64,000 nt of DNA, from the NCBI RefSeq assembly GCF_004803895.1, contig NZ_CP021978.1, forward strand, positions 2,852,001-2,916,000, written 5' to 3'. Origin of the DNA: Streptomyces hawaiiensis. Lineage in GTDB: Bacteria > Actinomycetota > Actinomycetes > Streptomycetales > Streptomycetaceae. Under the pieces are notes generated by a model. That model ran no database searches, had not been told where the DNA came from, and was given only the letters and a program-made list of their open reading frames with translations. The translations under genes and the position numbers were made by a program. Shown piece by piece: positions 733 to 8,710 of this stretch (positions within the stretch are counted from its first letter, which is position 1; every line of letters starts with the position of its first letter).

Positions 733-1503
733 TCAAGCCGAAGCCAGTTCAGGAACCACGGGCGACGCCGTCAATGCCTCGTCATAGCGGTGGAGGAGGA
801 GCTGGGCCATCGCCGGGTGGGTGCCCAGGGGGGCCGCTGCTATCCAGGGGGCCGCCTGGGTGCACTCCGTGGCGAAGCGGCCGGGGGCTGTGAAGTAGGA
901 GGCCAGGGCTATGTGGCGGCGGCCCCTGGCGAGGAGGGTGCGGACGGCCGTGGGGACCGTGGGGGTCGCCGCCGAGGCGTAGGCCGGGATCACGGGGACG
1001 CCGAGGCGGGCGGCCAGGAGGTGGGCCGTGCGGGCGGTGTCCGTCTTGGCGTCCGGGTCGCGGGAGCCCGCGGCGGCGAGGACCACCGCGCTGGTGCGGC
1101 GGGGTGTGGCACCCCAGCCGGCTTCCAGGAGGCGGGCCTGGAGGGCGTCCACCAGGAGGGGGTGGGGGCCCAGGGGGGCCGCCAGGTGGATGCGGGCCGG
1201 GGAGGCCGCGGCCATCTCGGGGATGTCCTGCTTGACGTGGTAGCCGCGGCTGAGGAGGAGGGGGACGAGGACCGCCTCCGTGTCTCCGAGGGCGGCGAGC
1301 GTGTCGGGGAGCAGGGGGGCGTTGAGTTCGATGTGGCCCAGGTGCACCGGCACGTCGGGGCGCAGGGCCCGGACCCGGTCGAGGAGTGCGCTCACGGTGC
1401 TCAGCGCGCGGGGGTCGCGGCTGCCGTGCGCCACGACCACGAGGGCGGGCGGGGCCGGGCGGCGCGTGGCGGGCGGCGGGACGAGGCTGAGCTGACTGGG
1501 CAT
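733..1503 (-). CDS. sirohydrochlorin chelatase / CbiX-like protein
   Basis: A 256-residue CbiX/SirB-family protein, which inserts Fe2+ (or Co2+) into sirohydrochlorin. The first half has the family hallmark [11 protein letters not shown], with the metal-binding His, at about residues 25-35, and [13 protein letters not shown] carries the second conserved His. The second half repeats the fold ([24 protein letters not shown]), but the His of the N-terminal AHGS motif is Ala there, so only the first half looks fully metal-liganding. Siroheme is the cofactor of the NirB nitrite reductase encoded at 16.7 kb, so this gene probably serves nitrite (and sulfite) assimilation. It starts with the ATG at 1503 after a 215-bp gap from a divergent gene. 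Fe versus Co specificity is undetermined. Confidence 0.85.
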
Positions 1504-1718: not shown

Positions 1719-2417
1719 ATGCGCATACCGGCGTTTCGCAGACTGCGGCTGCCGCGTACCCGGCGTGGGCAGCGGAGGCTGGTGCAGGCCGTGATGGCCG
1801 GGTGCGTGCTCGCGCTGCTTCCGGCGACGTGGATGTACACCGTGGCGGGTGACCGGCTGCGTACGGCGGCGGATGTGCCGCGTACCGATGTGGCCGTGGT
1901 GTTCGGTGCCGGGCTGTGGGACGGGGAGCCCTCGCCGTATCTCGCGCACCGGCTCGACGCGGCGGCGAAGCTGTACCGGGAGGGGCGGGTGGAGGTGGTG
2001 CTCGTCACCGGGGACAACAGCCGCGAGGACTACGACGAGCCGGACGCGATGCGCGTGTACCTGACGCGGCACGGGGTGCCCGACGGGCGGATCGTCAGTG
2101 ACTACGCGGGGTTCGACACCTGGGACTCGTGCGTGCGCGCGAAAAAGATCTTCGGGGTGGACGAGGCCGTGCTGATCAGCCAGGGCTTCCACATCCGGCG
2201 GGCCGTGGCGCTGTGCGAGGCGGCGGGGGTCACCTCGTACGGGGTCGGGGTGGACGCCGTGCACGACGCGACCTGGTACTACGGGGGCGCCCGGGAGATC
2301 CTCGCCGCCGGGAAGGCCGCTCTGGACGCGGTGTTCCGGCCGGATCCACGGTTCCTCGGGCCGCGGGAGCCAGGGGTGCACAGGGCGTTGGCCAAGGCCG
2401 AAGGGACGCTCGGATGA
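1719..2417 (+). CDS. SanA/YdcF-family membrane-anchored protein (DUF218)
   Basis: A 232-residue protein with a basic N-terminus and one membrane segment (about residues 28-45, VMAGCVLALLPATWMYTVAG), followed by a DUF218 domain. Family features are DVAVVFGAGLWDG, the LDAAAKLYREGRVEVVLVTGDNS block, TRHGVPDGRIVSDYAGFDTWDSCVRAKKIF and QGFHIRRAVALCE. E. coli SanA, of the same type, affects envelope permeability to vancomycin at high temperature; the biochemical activity is not well defined. The domain should face outwards. The gene stands alone and divergent from the chelatase gene, with a hairpin downstream. The family is certain, the function is not. Confidence 0.8.
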   Translation: MRIPAFRRLRLPRTRRGQRRLVQAVMAGCVLALLPATWMYTVAGDRLRTAADVPRTDVAVVFGAGLWDGEPSPYLAHRLDAAAKLYREGRVEVVLVTGDNSREDYDEPDAMRVYLTRHGVPDGRIVSDYAGFDTWDSCVRAKKIFGVDEAVLISQGFHIRRAVALCEAAGVTSYGVGVDAVHDATWYYGGAREILAAGKAALDAVFRPDPRFLGPREPGVHRALAKAEGTLG

Positions 2418-2625: not shown

Positions 2626-3393
2626 TCAGCGCCCTCGGAAGGCCGGTGGGCGCTTCTCCAGGAACGCCGTCATCCCCTCCTTCTGGTCGTCGGTGGCGAA
2701 CAGGGCGTGGAAGACGTGGCGTTCGAAGCGGACGCCGTCGCGCAGGCCGGTCTCCAGGGCCCGGTCGACGCACTCGCGGGCCGCCCTGACCGCCGCGCGG
2801 CCGTAGGAGGCGATCGCCGCCGCCGCTTCGAGGGCCTCGGGCAGGACCCGGTCGTCCGGGACCACGCGGGAGACGAGACCGCAGCGTCCAGCCTCCCGTG
2901 CGTCCATCGTGCGGCCGGTGAGCACCAGGTCCATGGCCTTGGCCCGGCCGACGAGGCGGGTCAGCCGCTGGGTGCCGCCGATGCCGGGGATCACGCCCAG
3001 CTTGATCTCGGGCTGGCCGAAGACCGCCGACTCCCCCGCGACGACCAGGTCGCACATCATGGCCAGCTCGCAACCGCCGCCCAGGGCGTGTCCGTTGACG
3101 GCCGCGATCTTCGGGGTGCGGAGGTCCGCGAACTCCTCCCAGCCGGCGAAGTAGTCCTCGGCCGCCATGTCGGCGGCCGACTTCCCGGCCATCTCCTTGA
3201 TGTCGGCGCCGGCGGCGAAGACCGTGTCCGAGCCGGTGACGACGAAGCAGCCGGTTCCGGGGTCCGTGTCCAACGGGCGGAGCACGTCGAGGAGTTCGGT
3301 GAGGAGCTCACTGCTGAGCGCGTTGCGGACGTGCGGGCGGTGCAGGCGCACGGTCACCACTCGGCCGTGCCGTTCCACCTTCAGATGGTTCAT
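2626..3393 (-). CDS. enoyl-CoA hydratase/isomerase (crotonase) family protein
   Basis: A 255-residue crotonase. The oxyanion-hole and acyl-CoA signatures are present (AAGADIKEM near residue 60; GHALGGGCELAM near 100). Both acidic residues expected of a true syn-hydratase are there: Glu in GGGCELAM and Glu in FGQPEIKLGVIPGIGGTQRL. It should hydrate 2-enoyl-CoA thioesters in the cytoplasm. It starts 34 bp after the membrane flavoprotein gene on the same strand and is therefore probably the third gene of the operon beginning at 6201. Its placement with an adenylating enzyme suggests work on a CoA- or carrier-bound acyl chain, but this is inference; it may simply be a beta-oxidation enzyme. Confidence 0.85.
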   Translation of the reverse strand: MNHLKVERHGRVVTVRLHRPHVRNALSSELLTELLDVLRPLDTDPGTGCFVVTGSDTVFAAGADIKEMAGKSAADMAAEDYFAGWEEFADLRTPKIAAVNGHALGGGCELAMMCDLVVAGESAVFGQPEIKLGVIPGIGGTQRLTRLVGRAKAMDLVLTGRTMDAREAGRCGLVSRVVPDDRVLPEALEAAAAIASYGRAAVRAARECVDRALETGLRDGVRFERHVFHALFATDDQKEGMTAFLEKRPPAFRGR

Positions 3394-3427
3394 CCGTCTT
3401 CTCCTTCCAAGCGATGACGAGTCGAGG

Positions 3428-4684
3428 TCACGAGTCCCAGATCGCGCCGTACGCCGGGATGCCCCGCCGTTCCAGGCCGTGGACCACCTGCCAGGTCAGC
3501 TTCTTGTTGGAGATGCAGATGACCGCCTCCGCGCCGGAGTCCCGGTAGGCCTCGTGGGCGAGGCGCATCATGTCGGGTTTGCCGTGCCGGGAGGTGTCCC
3601 AGACCAGGGCGTGCGGCTGGACGGCGAGGATCTCGTCGACCAGGGCGTCGCCGTAGGTGGCTCGGGGGTCGCGGGTCGCCCAGACCAGTCGGGAGGGCAC
3701 CTGGGCGGCGAGCAGGTGGGGCAGGCAGGGGCCGATGCCGCTGCCGGTGGCGACGTAGACCACCTTGGTGAACAGGACCTCGATGTTGGCGACGCCGGCC
3801 GTGGTGATGCCCTTGACCCATATCCGCTCGGGCAGGTCGTCGATGAAGGAGCCGGTCCAGTCGCCGGCCCGGGAGATCGTGAGCCGGAAGCCGGACTCGC
3901 CGGGGGTGGGGACGTTGGCGAAGGAGTGCCATTCCTTCAGCGGGTGGCGGCTGATCGCGGTGGAGGAACCCGCGAAGGGGGTCTCGCCGTGGTCGAAGCG
4001 GGCCAGGACGACGTGGGAGGAGGGGCGTTCGAGGCGGACGTTCACCTTGCGCAGCCGCAGCCAGGGCAGGGCGACGCTGAAGGTGACCAGCGCGAGCACG
4101 CCGACCTCCCAGGGGCCCGGCGACGACAGCAGCGTGTGCGTCCAGAACAGGGCCAGGGCCGCCCAGCCGCCGAAGCGGTGGATCTTCTCGAAGTGGTCGT
4201 GGTGGCGGGAGCGGAAGGGCGGCAGGGCGGTGGCGATGACGAGCGCGAGGAGGGCGATCAGCGTCCAGCCCACGGCCATGAGGGGGCCGCTCGGCGTGGT
4301 GATCGTCAGCGCCAGGAACCAGGCCGTGCCCGCCAGCGCCCCGCCGACGTGCAGTCCGCCGAAGTGGTACACCTTGCCGAGCGTCCAGCGGACCCGCAGC
4401 GGCCAGCTCGTCGGCGCCGAAGTCGCCAGCCGGAACAGCAGGTTGACAACGTACTGCTGGCGTACGAGGACGGCGAGGGCGAGGTTGGCGAGGGCCGCGT
4501 GCCCGAGGGTGGGCGCGGACAGCGGCCAAGCGGTCGCCGCGAAGGCCGCGTTGGCCAGCAGGACCAGGGCCGCCAAGCGGTTGTAGTGCATCAGCCGGGG
4601 GTGCTTGAGGAGGCGGCGGTGGGCGGGGAGGAGCGGCGGGAGTGCGCCGGTGCCCGGGTGGGTCCGAGGAGGGGACGTGGTCAT
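3428..4684 (-). CDS. TmpA/TmpL-like membrane flavoprotein (ferric-reductase-like TM plus FAD/NAD domain)
   Basis: A 418-residue protein starting at ATG 4684, which overlaps the stop of the upstream adenylation gene by 4 bp (ATGA). Residues about 40-195 hold several hydrophobic helices with histidines suited to heme ligation (KVYHFGGLHVGG; HHDHFEKIHRFGGWAALALFWTHT). The soluble C-terminal half contains an FAD/NAD-type module with VVYVATGSGIGPCLPHLL near residue 310 and ends in AVICISNKKLTWQVVHGLERRGIPAYGAIWDS. This resembles, from memory, the C-terminal half of the fungal redox-developmental proteins TmpA and TmpL, which are transmembrane flavoproteins. In TmpL an AMP-binding domain is fused upstream; here it is the preceding gene. 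Electron transfer across or at the membrane is likely; donor, acceptor and physiological role are unknown. Confidence 0.7.
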   Translation of the reverse strand: MTTSPPRTHPGTGALPPLLPAHRRLLKHPRLMHYNRLAALVLLANAAFAATAWPLSAPTLGHAALANLALAVLVRQQYVVNLLFRLATSAPTSWPLRVRWTLGKVYHFGGLHVGGALAGTAWFLALTITTPSGPLMAVGWTLIALLALVIATALPPFRSRHHDHFEKIHRFGGWAALALFWTHTLLSSPGPWEVGVLALVTFSVALPWLRLRKVNVRLERPSSHVVLARFDHGETPFAGSSTAISRHPLKEWHSFANVPTPGESGFRLTISRAGDWTGSFIDDLPERIWVKGITTAGVANIEVLFTKVVYVATGSGIGPCLPHLLAAQVPSRLVWATRDPRATYGDALVDEILAVQPHALVWDTSRHGKPDMMRLAHEAYRDSGAEAVICISNKKLTWQVVHGLERRGIPAYGAIWDS

Positions 4685-6201
4685 CGCGCCACCGCCACGC
4701 GCTCCTCGATCATGTGCAGCAGCGCCTGTTTGTCGACCTTGCCGCGGTCGGTCCCGGGGAGGAAGGCCAGCGGCAGGACCTGCTCGGGGACGCAGTAGTA
4801 GGGCAGGGCGTCCGCGACCGCGCGGCGTGCCGCCTCCGGGTCGACATCCGCCGGGCAGACGAAGGAGACCAGGGTGCGGGCGTCGCGTTTCAGGGTGACG
4901 GCCCGGGTGCAGCCGGCGGCCGACTCCAGGACCGAGGAGACGGAGTCCAGCTCGACGCGGAAGCCGCGCACCTTGACCTGGTCGTCGGTGCGGCCCAGGT
5001 GCTCCAGCTCGCCCCCGGGGGTCCAGCGGCCGAGGTCGCGGGTGCGGAACATGCGGCGGCCACCGCCGAGGAACGGGTCGGGGGCGTAGCGCTCGGCGTT
5101 GAGGGCGTCGTCGCCGAGGTAGCCGGCGGAGACGCAGTCGCCGCCGGCCCACATCTCGCCGGGCTCGCCGACGGGCAGGGGGCGGCGGTCGGCGTCGAGG
5201 ACGTAGACCGTGTTGTTGGGCGTGGGGCGGCCGATGGTGAGCAGTGGGGCGGACGGGTCGTGGCGGCTCATCGTGTTGACGATCGTCGTCTCCGTCGGGC
5301 CGCAGCCGTTGAAGAAGGCGGCGTGCCGGGCCCACCGGTCGGCCAGCGGGCGCGGGCAGGGCTCCCCGGCGACGGCGACCGTGCGCACCCGCGGGCAGGC
5401 GGCCGGGTCGAGGCCGGACAGCACGGTCGGCGTCGCGACGATCACGTCCGCCGTGCGGGCCGCGGCGGCGGGGTCCTTGCCGCGGATGAGGAGCGTGCCG
5501 CCCTGGGTGAGGCAGCCGAGGATCTCCCAGGCGGCCATGTCGAAGGCGATGTTGAGGAGCTGGGCGACCCGGTCGCCGGGCCGGACGCCCAGGCCGCCCG
5601 GGGCGGTGAGCAGGAGGTTGGCGACGTTGCGGTGGGTGACCTTCACGCCGTTGGGGTGGCCGGTGGTGCCGGAGGTGAACAGGACGTAGCAGCCGTCGTC
5701 GCCGGTGACCCGGACGCGCGGGGGCGGGGCGTACGGCAGTGGCTCGTCGAGCGGGAGCAGCAGATGGCCGTCCGGCAGGGGCACGCGGTGGGCGTGCTCG
5801 GCGACTGTGAGGACGACCCGGGTCCGGGCGGTGCGGATGACGTGGGTGAGCTGGGCCGGGGGCGTGAGGCCGATGTCCTGCGGGACGTAGGCGGCGCCGG
5901 CCTTCAGGATGCCGAGCAGGCCGACCAGCATCGGGATCGAGCGGCGGACGAACAGGCCGACGTGGTCGCCGGGGCGGACGCCCTCGCGGACCAGGCGGGC
6001 GGCGAGGGCGCCGGCGTGCCGGTCGAGCTCGCCGTAGGTGATGCGGGCGCCCTGGTGCTCGGCGGCCATGGCGTGCGGGGTGGCCGTGGCGTGCCGGGCG
6101 ACGGCGTGGTGCAGGAGCGGGTCGGGGACGGGGACGGTCGGGCCCCGGCCGTACTGCCGGAAGAGCCGCTGGTCGTGGGGGGTCAAGTGGCGCAGAGGCA
6201 T
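4681..6201 (-). CDS. stand-alone NRPS-type adenylation (AMP-binding) enzyme
   Basis: A 506-residue adenylate-forming enzyme with the core motifs in order: A3 TSGTTGHPNG near residue 178 (the usual PKG Lys is Asn), A4 FDMAAWEI near 216, A5 FFNGCGPTETTI near 296, A7/A8 FRTRDLGRW and GRTDDQVKVRGFRVEL, and A10 GTDRGKVDKQ near 488 with the catalytic Lys. Asp in FDMAAWEI aligns with Asp235 of GrsA PheA, which in NRPS domains binds the alpha-amino group, so an amino acid is the likely substrate. There is no carrier, condensation or reductase domain. The SD-like AGGAGG lies 10 nt before ATG 6201. It is first gene of a coupled operon with a membrane flavoprotein, and divergent from nasA. Confidence 0.85.
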   Translation of the reverse strand: MPLRHLTPHDQRLFRQYGRGPTVPVPDPLLHHAVARHATATPHAMAAEHQGARITYGELDRHAGALAARLVREGVRPGDHVGLFVRRSIPMLVGLLGILKAGAAYVPQDIGLTPPAQLTHVIRTARTRVVLTVAEHAHRVPLPDGHLLLPLDEPLPYAPPPRVRVTGDDGCYVLFTSGTTGHPNGVKVTHRNVANLLLTAPGGLGVRPGDRVAQLLNIAFDMAAWEILGCLTQGGTLLIRGKDPAAAARTADVIVATPTVLSGLDPAACPRVRTVAVAGEPCPRPLADRWARHAAFFNGCGPTETTIVNTMSRHDPSAPLLTIGRPTPNNTVYVLDADRRPLPVGEPGEMWAGGDCVSAGYLGDDALNAERYAPDPFLGGGRRMFRTRDLGRWTPGGELEHLGRTDDQVKVRGFRVELDSVSSVLESAAGCTRAVTLKRDARTLVSFVCPADVDPEAARRAVADALPYYCVPEQVLPLAFLPGTDRGKVDKQALLHMIEERVAVAR

Positions 6202-6395
6202 GGTCGGGTGGCCTCCTGGCTGTTTCGAGGTCGGATTGCCACCTGCGGCGGAGCCGCGGGTGGATGCAGCCGTGAGCGGCGGGCATGCCCGGGTGTCGAA
6301 CGCCGTGCGGAGTCGTGCGAGCGCTGCGCGTAGCGAGAGCGTAGTGCGGCTGCTTCAACTCTCAACGAGGTTGGATCGGCCAAGAAAGGAACGCA

Positions 6396-6458
6396 ATGAG
6401 CCACATGTGGCGTTTCTGGTCCCAGGGGCAACGTCAGTGCCGGTCGGCGACGACCTGA
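6396..6458 (+). CDS. possible 20-residue leader peptide upstream of nasA
   Basis: A short ORF, ATG 6396 to TGA 6456-6458, encodes a 20-residue peptide beginning MSHMWRFWSQGQRQCR. It is preceded by AAGAAAGGAACGCA, a purine-rich Shine-Dalgarno at good spacing and better than many start sites in this window. It ends 113 bp before nasA. The peptide carries two Trp and one Cys but no obvious run of a regulatory amino acid. It may be a leader peptide, a small protein, or chance. Confidence 0.3.
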   Translation: MSHMWRFWSQGQRQCRSATT

Positions 6459-6510
6459 AGGTGGGCAGGCGTGTGCCTCACGCGGGCGGGGCGGTGGCGG
6501 GGAGGTTGCC

Positions 6511-6559
6511 GTCCCGGCCGCGTAACAGGGAACCGTCCCGGGCGTAACACGGCCGACGC
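6511..6559 (+). promoter_or_regulatory. candidate GlnR-binding site upstream of nasA
   Basis: Two GTAAC pentamers at 6522-6526 and 6544-6548 are spaced exactly 22 bp, the period of the a- and b-halves of actinobacterial GlnR boxes (gTnAC-n6-GaAAC repeats). Partial half-sites sit in register: GTCCC at 6511-6515 and GACGC at 6555-6559. The site ends 12 bp before the nasA ATG. The intervening GAAAC half-site is poor (CCGTC), so this is a plausible rather than perfect match. Confidence 0.5.
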
Positions 6560-6571
6560 ACGCTGAACGGT

Positions 6572-8710
6572 ATGCAGAGCACCGTGACGCCCACGCACTG
6601 CCCGTACTGCGCCCTGCAGTGCGGGATGAACCTGACGCCCGTGCCGGACGGGACCGTCGAGGTGAGCGAGCGCGCGGATTTCCCGGTGAACAGGGGCGCG
6701 CTGTGCGGCAAGGGCCGTACGGCGGCGGCGGTGCTCGCGCGCGAGGCCCGTCTGAACTCCCCGTTGGTGCGCGACGAGGGCGGCTCGCTGGTGCCCGCCT
6801 CCTGGGACGAGGCGCTGGACCGGATCGCCGCGGGGCTGGGCGGCACGCGCGCGCGGTACGGGCCGGACGCGGTCGGCGTGTTCGGCGGAGGCGGGCTGAC
6901 GAACGAGAAGGCGTACACGCTCGGCAAGTTCGCGCGGGTCGTGCTCGGCACGTCCCAGATCGACTACAACGGGCGTTTTTGCATGTCGTCGGCGGCGGCG
7001 GCCGGCATCAAGGCGTTCGGGCTGGACCGCGGGCTGCCCTTCCCGCTGGAGGACATCCCGAAGTCCGGCTGCGTGATCCTGGTCGGGTCGAACCTCGCGG
7101 AGACCATGCCGCCGGCGCTGCGGTTCTTCACCGAGCTGAAGGAGAACGGCGGCACGCTGATCGTCATCGACCCGCGCCGCACGAAGACCGCCGAACACGC
7201 GGACCTGCACCTGGCGCCCCGGCCGGGCACGGATCTGGCCCTCGCCCTGGGTCTGCTGCACCTGGTGATCGCCGAGGGGCGGGTGGACGAGGAGTACGTG
7301 CGGGAGCGCACGGCCGGCTGGGAGGACGCGCGGGCGGCGGCGATGGCGCACTGGCCGGAGTACGTGGAGCGGATCACGGGGGTGTCCGTTCCCGAACTCC
7401 GGGAGACCGTACGACTGTTCTGCGAGCCGGAGTCGGCGATGGTGCTCACCGCCCGGGGACCCGAGCAGCAGTCCAAGGGCACGGACACGGTCGGCGCGTG
7501 GATCAACCTGTGCCTGGCGACCGGCCGGGCGGGCCGCCCGCTGTCCGGGTACGGCTGTCTGACCGGCCAGGGCAACGGGCAGGGCGGGCGCGAACACGGG
7601 CAGAAGGCCGACCAGTTGCCGGGCTACCGCAAGCTCGACGACCCGGCCGCGCGGGCGCATGTCGCCGGGGTGTGGGGTGTCGACCCGGACAGCCTGCCCG
7701 GCCCGGGGCGCAGCGCGTACGAGCTTTTGGACGCGCTGGGCACCGACATCAGGTCGCTGCTGCTGATGGCGTCCAACCCGGTGGTGTCGGCGCCGCGGGC
7801 CGCGCACATCGAGGAGCGCATCCGGTCGCTGGACTTCCTGGCGGTCTGTGACGTGGTGCTGTCGGAGACGGCGGCGCTCGCGGACGTGGTCCTGCCGGTC
7901 ACCCAGTGGGCCGAGGAGACGGGCACGACGACGAACCTGGAGGGCAGGGTCCTGCTGCGGCGCCGGGCGATCACCCCGCCCGAGGGCATCCGCAGCGACC
8001 TGGAGGTGCTGCACGAACTCGCCGCCCGGCTGGGCGTGGAGAAGGGCTTCCCGACCGACCCGGAGGAGGTCTTCGAGGAACTGCGCCGCGCGTCGGCGGG
8101 CGGGGCGGCGGACTACTCGGGGATCACGTACCGCAGGCTGGTGGAGGAGGACGGGGTGTTCTGGCCGTGTCCGGCGGCCGTGGAGGCGGCCGGAGAGGGC
8201 GCGGACACCCTTCCCGACGCCCCCGCCGGGCAGACACCGGGCGTGCACCCGGGCACGCCCCGGCTCTTCCTCGACCGTTTCGCCACGGCGGACGGCCGGG
8301 CGCGGTTCGTCCCCGTCTCGCACCGTGCGATCGCCGAGGAACCGGACGAGGAATACCCCGTGCTGCTCACCACCGGGCGGGTCGTGGCGCAGTACCAGTC
8401 CGGGGCGCAGACCCGGCGCGTGGCCGAGCTGAACGCCGCCGCCCCCGGGCCGTTCGTGGAGCTGCACCCCCGGCTGGCGGCCCGGCTCGGAGCCGCCGAG
8501 GGGGATCCGGTGGCCGTCGTGTCGCGGCGGGGCCGGGCCGTGGCGCCCGCGAGGATCACGAACGCCATCCGGCCCGACACGGTCTTCATGCCCTTCCACT
8601 GGCCGGGCGAGGGCCGCGCCAACACCCTCACCAACCCCGCGCTCGACCCGACGTCCCGGATGCCGGAGTTCAAGGCGTGCGCGGTACGGCTGGAGGCGGT
8701 CCGGCGGTAG
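6572..8710 (+). CDS. nasA: assimilatory nitrate reductase catalytic subunit (molybdopterin oxidoreductase)
   Basis: A 712-residue cytoplasmic molybdopterin-bis-guanine-dinucleotide oxidoreductase. The N-terminus binds one [4Fe-4S] cluster through Cys10, Cys13, Cys17 and Cys45 (THCPYCALQCGM ... RGALCGKG). The body has the Mo-cofactor domains (DYNGRFCMSSAAAAGIKAFGLDRG; ILVGSNLAETMPP; GPEQQSKGTDT). The C-terminal molydop_binding domain begins near YPVLLTTGRVVAQYQSGAQTRR. Length and lack of a Tat signal match assimilatory NasA/NarB, reducing nitrate to nitrite with a ferredoxin- or NADH-linked donor. The product feeds NirBD at 16.7-19.7 kb. The upstream GTAAC repeats suggest GlnR control. The gene stops 3 bp before the convergent protease gene. 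Formate dehydrogenase-like enzymes are relatives, but context favours nitrate reductase. Confidence 0.88.
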   Translation: MQSTVTPTHCPYCALQCGMNLTPVPDGTVEVSERADFPVNRGALCGKGRTAAAVLAREARLNSPLVRDEGGSLVPASWDEALDRIAAGLGGTRARYGPDAVGVFGGGGLTNEKAYTLGKFARVVLGTSQIDYNGRFCMSSAAAAGIKAFGLDRGLPFPLEDIPKSGCVILVGSNLAETMPPALRFFTELKENGGTLIVIDPRRTKTAEHADLHLAPRPGTDLALALGLLHLVIAEGRVDEEYVRERTAGWEDARAAAMAHWPEYVERITGVSVPELRETVRLFCEPESAMVLTARGPEQQSKGTDTVGAWINLCLATGRAGRPLSGYGCLTGQGNGQGGREHGQKADQLPGYRKLDDPAARAHVAGVWGVDPDSLPGPGRSAYELLDALGTDIRSLLLMASNPVVSAPRAAHIEERIRSLDFLAVCDVVLSETAALADVVLPVTQWAEETGTTTNLEGRVLLRRRAITPPEGIRSDLEVLHELAARLGVEKGFPTDPEEVFEELRRASAGGAADYSGITYRRLVEEDGVFWPCPAAVEAAGEGADTLPDAPAGQTPGVHPGTPRLFLDRFATADGRARFVPVSHRAIAEEPDEEYPVLLTTGRVVAQYQSGAQTRRVAELNAAAPGPFVELHPRLAARLGAAEGDPVAVVSRRGRAVAPARITNAIRPDTVFMPFHWPGEGRANTLTNPALDPTSRMPEFKACAVRLEAVRR

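Follow-up and report, generated by a model that had tools for sequence, protein, structure and literature searches.

A Three-Gene Operon in Streptomyces hawaiiensis

The stretch of Streptomyces hawaiiensis DNA analyzed here (the window; 64,000 nucleotides, positions 2,852,001 to 2,916,000 of contig NZ_CP021978.1 in assembly GCF_004803895.1) carries on its minus strand an operon of three co-directed genes. These encode, in order of transcription, a stand-alone amino acid adenylation (A) enzyme, P0003; a membrane flavoprotein, P0002; and an enoyl-CoA hydratase of the crotonase type, P0001 (Table 1). A first-pass annotation made from the sequence had located the three genes and had likened the first two to the fungal protein TmpL, divided into separate polypeptides. 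Its coordinates, the ATGA overlap between the A gene and the membrane gene, the 34 bp spacing that follows, and the crotonase with both catalytic glutamates all check out.

P0001 scores 260.5 bits against the ECH_1 family and 371.1 bits against the enoyl-CoA hydratase equivalog PRK05862, below its curated cut-off of 396. Glu109 and Glu129 are both present in all 99 loci that hold the hydratase gene, among 102 loci examined. The host genome is a single contig of 8.88 Mb, and the best paralogue of P0001 within it is 46% identical.

The Adenylation Enzyme and Its Salinispora Orthologue

P0003 scores 343.4 bits against TIGR01733, the amino acid adenylation domain, for which the cut-off is 317.4, and this supports the proposal that it adenylates an amino acid in the manner of nonribosomal peptide synthetases (NRPSs). 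It also matches the Pfam AMP-binding family at 230.4 bits, and its top single-stretch matches in the Protein Data Bank (PDB) are tyrocidine synthase 1 (247.4 bits), Txo2 (245.5), and gramicidin synthetase 1 (236.6). The residues lining the substrate pocket were read by alignment to PheA landmarks, and form the ten-residue code D M W T A A G I V K. P0003 thus carries D221, W225, and K488 as the equivalents of Asp235, the aromatic residue at 239, and Lys517. Conservation of the pocket was counted over 138 rows, comprising 136 distinct rows out of 137 matches, P0003, and the Salinispora protein described below; two odd rows, with the codes DLWAAACVV- and EPWAATCLV-, were retained among them. The Asp is found in 137 rows, Met in 136, Trp in 138, the Ala at 299 in 138, the Ala at 301 in 137, Ile in 136, Val in 138, and Lys in 135, with a gap in the other 3. 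Position 322 is Cys in 88 rows, Ser in 22, Gly in 14, and Ala in 14; it is Gly in P0003.

A characterized member of the family is known from Salinispora arenicola. Sare0718, described by Xia et al. (2012), is a stand-alone A domain encoded by 1671 bp that lies outside the predicted NRPS clusters (PMC3360062; this and the other papers are cited from the portions of their text that were available). Of 20 amino acids it activates only L-Ala, with a Km of 0.116 mM and a kcat of 12.6 per min; its printed pocket code is DMWIAAAIVK, and its neighbors are printed as hypothetical and as enoyl-CoA hydratase (PMC3360062). The sare0718 forward primer matches perfectly in one of 160 genomes of the genus to which genome G441 belongs (G689), and the gene that it identifies there also has the reverse primer site close to its end, so that both primers fit a single place, locus L141. 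The A gene there is 1671 bp long and encodes 556 residues with a calculated mass of 60.17 kDa, as compared with the 60.29 kDa printed for Sare0718. G689 is probably another strain than the published source.

At L141 the A enzyme is 64% identical to P0003 over 508 columns, and its gene overlaps by ATGA that of a 460-residue protein 63% identical to P0002; a 254-residue protein 70% identical to P0001 follows the membrane gene. By sequence, the window trio is the orthologue of sare0718-0717-0716, with the same three genes, order, and overlap, and the hypothetical Sare0717 is the membrane protein of the trio. The pocket of P0003 differs from that of the L141 enzyme only at position 322, Gly for Ala, in the alignment used here. 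The trio also occurs in genome G801 (L154). In the published work the A enzyme alone was studied, as an orphan NRPS part, and the available text draws no link to TmpL (PMC3360062).

Fold and Haem Ligands of the Membrane Flavoprotein

Family libraries provide no name for P0002, and the attempt to assign one was dropped. Its best Pfam score, to Ferric_reduct, is 12.8 bits against a cut-off of 28 (17.4 bits in the genome search), NCBIfam gives no match, and neither the single sequence nor a 32-row profile finds a sequence relative in the PDB. The AlphaFold2 model built from the 32-row alignment (mean pLDDT 83.4, pTM 0.78) displays six long membrane-type helices and a C-terminal domain of FNR type. 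Its top Foldseek match is the NADPH oxidase of Streptococcus pneumoniae, SpNOX (E 6.4e-11); VIA-align superimposes the two over 354 residues, nearly the whole length, with Z 22.7, rmsd 4.5, and 13% identity, and ranks the human phagocyte NADPH oxidase second (Z 19.4). When its profile is compared globally with two ferric-reductase-like proteins encoded in the same genome, the probability is 86.8 and the E value 4.9e-7. P0002 is thus predicted to be a protein of the NOX/FRE fold, and the combination of transmembrane (TM) helices with an FAD/NAD domain that the first-pass annotation had read from the sequence is upheld by the predicted structure and its SpNOX match.

The histidines of P0002 were compared in an alignment of 104 rows (128 full-length, stop-free matches, 25 repeats merged, plus P0002; the window's own locus is included) whose most distant rows, from cyanobacteria, have about 32% identity. 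All 104 rows contain H112, H162, and H169, and 101 contain H107. These residues sit at the starts of TM3 and TM5, helix ends that face the cytosol provided that the dehydrogenase domain lies there. About 14 residues deeper, position 126 is His in 2 rows and another residue in 102; position 183 is His in 84 rows and Gln, Asn, or Leu in 20. P0002 has no histidine 13–15 residues after H107 or H112, and it departs from the four-histidine NOX/FRE pattern of bacterial long forms, in which TM3 and TM5 each provide two histidines spaced 13–14 residues apart. In SpNOX, H69 and H129 bind the inner haem and H83 and H142 the outer one (PMC11564096). Because the cytosol-side histidines are conserved and the deeper positions 126 and 183 are not conserved, P0002 is predicted to hold one haem, at the inner, cytosolic side. 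This count is offered as a prediction, not as a result.

The likeness to SpNOX and other NOX/FRE proteins thus resides in the predicted six-helix and FNR-type dehydrogenase fold and in an aromatic residue third from the C terminus: Trp416 of P0002, found in 104 of 104 rows, probably corresponds to Phe397, the gating residue of SpNOX (PMC11564096). The difference is that SpNOX binds two haems on four histidines, whereas the relatives of P0002 conserve only the cytosol-side set. STEAP and YedZ resemble P0002 in that the ferric reductase domain probably holds just one haem, but they retain the outer haem pair (PMC3591440; for STEAP4 also PMC10659578), the reverse of what P0002 appears to do. A ferric reductase domain with the inner haem alone is not listed in the available part of the published classification (PMC3591440), and the prediction of haem ligands confined to the cytosolic side is new here. 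The helices had been described as ferric-reductase-like. That description holds for the predicted fold; a complete ferric reductase, or an oxidase producing reactive oxygen species (ROS), is unlikely because only the cytosol-side histidines have been kept.

Conservation of the Trio

Recurrence of the gene pair in other genomes had been chosen beforehand as one of two tests of the first-pass reading. The pair does recur, and it does so as a trio. Searches of 245 genomes of the order, with E values up to 1e-5 for P0002, 1e-120 for orthologues of P0003, and 1e-90 for P0001, found P0002 in 27 genomes, a P0003 orthologue in 27, and P0001 at an identity of at least 72% in 25; all three genes are present in 25. 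The exceptions are G064 and G136, with P0002 only (on a 3.4 kb contig in G064, and as a fragment with a stop in G136), and G142 and G199, with incomplete A matches only. A crotonase of 58–63% identity occurs in another 31 of the 245 genomes, none of which has P0002.

Three Streptomyces-like genomes (G142, G199, and G136, at loci L132, L133, and L134) retain only remains of the operon. Because these, viewed by eye, adjoin the same CbiX-type neighbor as in the window, they suggest that loss of the operon is in progress.

Gene order was counted at named loci holding the best 80 of 272 relatives of P0002, which are its closest relatives and nearly all from Streptomyces. The A gene lies directly upstream in 77 of the 80 (three of these matches, L033, L070, and L077, are partial), and the three misses are contig ends; the hydratase gene lies downstream in 79 (partial in L033). 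Of 102 loci examined, 99 have both the A gene and the membrane gene, and in 93 of these the two could overlap by the same 4 bp. Farther afield, P0002 is found in 3 of 396 genomes of a phylum sample, in 8 of 61 genomes comprising G441 and its relatives, and in 25 of 160 genomes of the G441 genus; in this last set the A gene lies within a 1.5 kb flank in 22 of 25 and the hydratase gene in 20 of 25. The surroundings of the trio, viewed by eye, differ among Streptomyces, Catenulispora, and the G441 genus. Neighboring genes were predicted with a simple caller based on GC frame; it overlooked P0002 in the window and, in L103, the hydratase. Of 103 loci, 8 were dropped for want of one near-full-length gene; over the remaining 95 the protein distance matrices of the three genes agree (Mantel r 0.905, 0.910, and 0.936), and none of 999 permutations reaches values as high. 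Since the arrangement recurs in many genomes it is not due to chance, and the trio is a true gene unit.

Two loci show additions or replacements. In Streptomyces lasiicapitis a gene for an FMO-like flavin monooxygenase occupies the usual place of the hydratase gene (L096:9368-10858). In a Catenulispora metagenome-assembled genome (MAG) the trio is followed on the same strand by a second AMP-binding gene (L138:13890-15755), possibly for an extra step.

Relationship to Fungal TmpL, TmpB, and TmpA

TmpL is a protein of 1025 residues in which an A domain is followed by six TM helices and an FAD/NAD(P) domain; it has no T or C domain and is needed for control of intracellular ROS (PMC2766074). The printed NAD(P) motif, GSGIGP, is identical in P0002. 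The printed FAD motif, RLHFD (PMC2766074), corresponds to LARFD in P0002, LAHFD in its relatives, and LLHFN in Pantoea. Phylogenetic evidence comes from Bushley and Turgeon (PMC2823734), who found that single A domains from Salinispora nest in the clade of ChNPS12 (TmpL). They note that ChNPS12 carries a ferric reductase domain, and a bacterial partner gene goes without mention in the available text. We infer that the Salinispora domains in question are Sare0718 and its S. tropica orthologue. In Aspergillus nidulans an enoyl-CoA hydratase gene adjoins tmpB (PMC4804170), so that each of the three bacterial proteins is matched at a single fungal locus.

The fungal and bacterial systems share the order of A domain, six TM helices, and FAD/NAD domain, the GSGIGP motif, and the lack of T and C domains. 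TmpB further resembles the bacterial enzymes in its pocket, which has the Asp, Trp, Gly, Ile, and Lys, with the Cys at 322 that is the commonest residue in the bacterial rows and is replaced by Gly in P0003. The differences are that TmpL and TmpB are single polypeptides of about 1000 residues, whereas the window has two open reading frames (ORFs), and that the fungal proteins are located at the peroxisome or Woronin body or at the plasma membrane. The proposal that the first two genes are a split form of the TmpL architecture is well supported in outline, by way of printed motifs and published descriptions: the trio is conserved, the A domains group with ChNPS12, and a hydratase gene stands beside tmpB. 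Of the two motifs, the NAD(P) motif is identical and the FAD motif differs. TmpL orthologues were reported in filamentous fungi only (PMC2766074), and the open-licence literature searched contains no report that links a bacterial A enzyme, flavoprotein, and hydratase trio to TmpL; this link is new here.

TmpA, like P0002, is a stand-alone TM and FAD/NAD protein, and bacteria also have relatives of P0002 that lack an A gene; in the window, by contrast, the membrane gene overlaps an A gene. By analogy, the A-less bacterial proteins may be said to mirror TmpA beside TmpL in fungi. An actinomycete subgroup (L116, L163-L165) has such relatives at 52–57% identity. A further locus without a neighboring A gene, L026, lies at a contig end.

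Several A-less homologues have distinctive surroundings. Plasmids of Pantoea piersonii carry a stand-alone homologue; in the one of two that was read, it is 49.6% identical, annotated as hypothetical, and encoded several kb from an aerobactin-type siderophore cluster (L111:11734-13089). Plasmids of Calothrix and Fischerella carry homologues of about 32% identity with no A gene nearby (L112:9848-12599, L113:9848-12563, and L114:6475-9078). A gene of similar length follows each of these, and it is of HlyD type in L112, the one scanned. In G676 (L130), a 56% homologue without an A gene lies after penicillin-binding protein (PBP) and FtsW/RodA-type genes and before a radical SAM gene.

Proposed Reaction Sequence and Alternatives

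Taken together, these comparisons make it fairly probable, with appreciable room for doubt, that the operon represents a bacterial counterpart of TmpL/TmpB divided among three proteins and is the orthologue of sare0718-0716, serving a pathway that we propose to be of alanine type. P0003 would activate a small L-amino acid as the aminoacyl-AMP, most likely L-alanine or a close relative, by extension from the Salinispora enzyme. The acyl group would then pass to an acceptor, for which CoA is the most likely candidate, since the trio comes without a carrier gene and ends with a hydratase of the CoA type. P0002 may oxidize NAD(P)H and pass the electrons by way of FAD to a single putative b haem at the cytosolic side, ligated by histidines of TM3 and TM5, and these electrons might be used on the activated amino acid or on a membrane acceptor rather than on oxygen across the membrane. 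P0001 could add or remove water at the resulting unsaturated thioester. The product may be a small metabolite derived from an amino acid, perhaps a developmental signal such as has been proposed for TmpB.

Several observations weigh against parts of this reading. The substrate of P0003 may differ from that of the Salinispora enzyme, given Gly for Ala at 322; the L141 code reads T at 278 here, where the printed code has I; and the authors of the TmpB study, whose model was based on PheA, suggest a hydrophobic amino acid as the substrate, not alanine (PMC4804170). Whereas tmpL mutants are sensitive to oxidative stress, conidia of the tmpB deletion strain are not (PMC4804170), and the likeness to TmpL was drawn from printed motifs and published descriptions of the fungal proteins. 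The haem assignment depends on predicted helix boundaries. In the profile alignment H169 pairs with the first TM5 histidine of a ferric-reductase-like protein of the same genome, and H112 pairs, with a gap, with the outer (second) TM3 histidine; the TM3 column is ambiguous for this reason, and the number of haems stays a prediction. Agreement of the distance matrices may come in part from species descent. The hydratase gene does not adjoin in L096, nor at two loci from the G441 genus (L146 and L147), and P0002-type proteins occur without a neighboring A gene in L111-L114, L116, and L163-L165. Finally, a phosphopantetheinyl transferase (PPTase) gene stands beside the Salinispora trio (printed as sare0719 and seen as an ORF), which hints at a carrier protein somewhere.

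That last point bears on a competing explanation, to which we give a low probability: that the A enzyme supplies an NRPS in trans by loading a distant carrier, and that the flavoprotein and hydratase tailor a peptide or hybrid product. The match of P0003 to TIGR01733 is what such a role would lead one to expect, the PPTase gene adjoins the Salinispora trio (PMC3360062; motif FSAKETIYK in L141), a second AMP-binding gene directly follows the trio in the Catenulispora MAG, and the host genome contains 47 AMP-binding matches, several in very long ORFs. The search for carrier and PPTase motifs covered 87 loci with flanks of up to 8 kb or more on each side, several of them cut shorter where a contig ended. 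By this motif search a crude carrier motif occurs in 2 of the 87, L055 and L077; in L077 it lies in a long ORF just before the membrane gene, the place of the A gene. For the PPTase, whose gene lies upstream of sare0718, the motif is present at the Salinispora site (both L140 and L141 denote it) and was not found at any other locus scanned. The earlier remark that no carrier gene is visible near the operon is borne out by these counts. A PPTase or carrier as a fourth conserved part was rejected on the same counts. The differing surroundings of the trio, and the position of sare0718 outside the predicted NRPS clusters of its genome (PMC3360062), also speak against supply in trans.

It is improbable that P0002 is a plain NADPH oxidase, or a ferric or cupric reductase, that serves redox balance with the other two genes as separate passengers. 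Such a function would agree with the nearly whole-length fold match to SpNOX, followed by the human phagocyte enzyme, and with the reported need for TmpL in intracellular ROS control (PMC2766074), but the outer haem histidines are not conserved, and passengers would hardly be expected to keep a constant gene order, with a 4-bp overlap possible at 93 of 99 loci.

Also very doubtful is a catabolic module resembling beta-oxidation, in which an amino acid or similar carboxylate is converted to a CoA thioester, oxidized with the help of flavin, and hydrated, while P0002 delivers electrons to the respiratory chain: the order of ligase, redox flavoprotein, and hydratase copies that logic, P0001 is closest to the generic PRK05862 (371 bits, cut-off 396), and its best paralogue is only 46% identical, but P0002 finds its best fold matches among FNR/NOX dehydrogenases rather than acyl-CoA dehydrogenases, the three scanned neighbors (CbiX, DUF218, and molybdopterin oxidoreductase) include no thiolase or hydroxyacyl-CoA dehydrogenase, and the distribution is patchy (27 of 245 genomes).

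The split-TmpL reading can be extended to an ancient carrier-free pathway, common to filamentous actinomycetes and filamentous fungi, that converts an alanine-type substrate to a small signal: after adenylation, an inner-haem enzyme of NOX fold would divert electrons of NAD(P)H away from oxygen and onto the activated amino acid at the inner face of the membrane, and the hydratase would complete the product, with TmpL as the fusion of the first two proteins; we regard this extension as speculative and rather unlikely. In fungi, TmpL and TmpB have effects on redox balance, virulence, or sporulation, and the activation of L-Ala by the Salinispora A enzyme suggests what fungal TmpL may act on. A soluble member characterized with L-Ala, together with a separable membrane partner, makes the question of the substrate and product of TmpL and TmpB testable in laboratory strains of Streptomyces and A. 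nidulans, and one defined module now unites a gene family listed as orphan “NRPS” with a family of membrane proteins that had no name.

Features and Surroundings of the Operon

Table 1. Positions of the operon genes, key residues, and neighboring features, numbered from the first letter of the window
Feature	Position	Strand	Basis
P0003, stand-alone amino acid adenylation enzyme, 506 aa	4681-6201	-	TIGR01733; pocket code DMWTAAGIVK
P0002, membrane flavoprotein, predicted six-helix NOX/ferric-reductase fold, TmpA-like half, 418 aa	3428-4684	-	
P0001, enoyl-CoA hydratase/crotonase, 255 aa	2626-3393	-	Family scores and both Glu
ATGA overlap, A gene stop/membrane gene start	4681-4684	-	Sequence
Gap between P0002 and P0001 genes, 34 bp	3394-3427		
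Asp221 codon of P0003	5539-5541	-	
Lys488 codon of P0003	4738-4740	-	
H107-FGGL-H112 of P0002, TM3 start, proposed cytosol-side haem ligand region	4349-4366	-	104-row alignment; DSSP of model
H162 to H169 of P0002, TM5 start; H169 is proposed haem ligand	4178-4201	-	
GSGIGP NAD(P)-binding motif of P0002, residues 314-319	3728-3745	-	Same motif printed for TmpL
Trp416 of P0002, invariant aromatic, third from C terminus	3437-3439	-	104-row alignment
Glu109 codon of P0001	3067-3069	-	
Glu129 codon of P0001	3007-3009	-	
Intergenic region upstream of operon, divergent from molybdopterin oxidoreductase gene	6202-6571		
AGGAGG in this intergenic region	6212-6217		
Molybdopterin oxidoreductase gene, divergent neighbor; Fe4S4, molybdopterin, and dinucleotide-binding domains	6572-8710		
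DUF218 gene, convergent neighbor	1719-2417		
CbiX gene, beyond DUF218 gene	733-1503		

Because the trio is flanked by the divergent molybdopterin oxidoreductase gene and the convergent DUF218 gene, beyond which lies CbiX, no fourth co-directed gene adjoins it in the window. The three operon genes contain no TTA (bldA) codon. A conserved upstream regulatory motif was considered and set aside, since conservation over 73 rows is weak except at the ribosome-binding site and in short patches about 150–210 bp upstream. Sequences resembling ribosome-binding sites precede the P0003 and P0001 genes.

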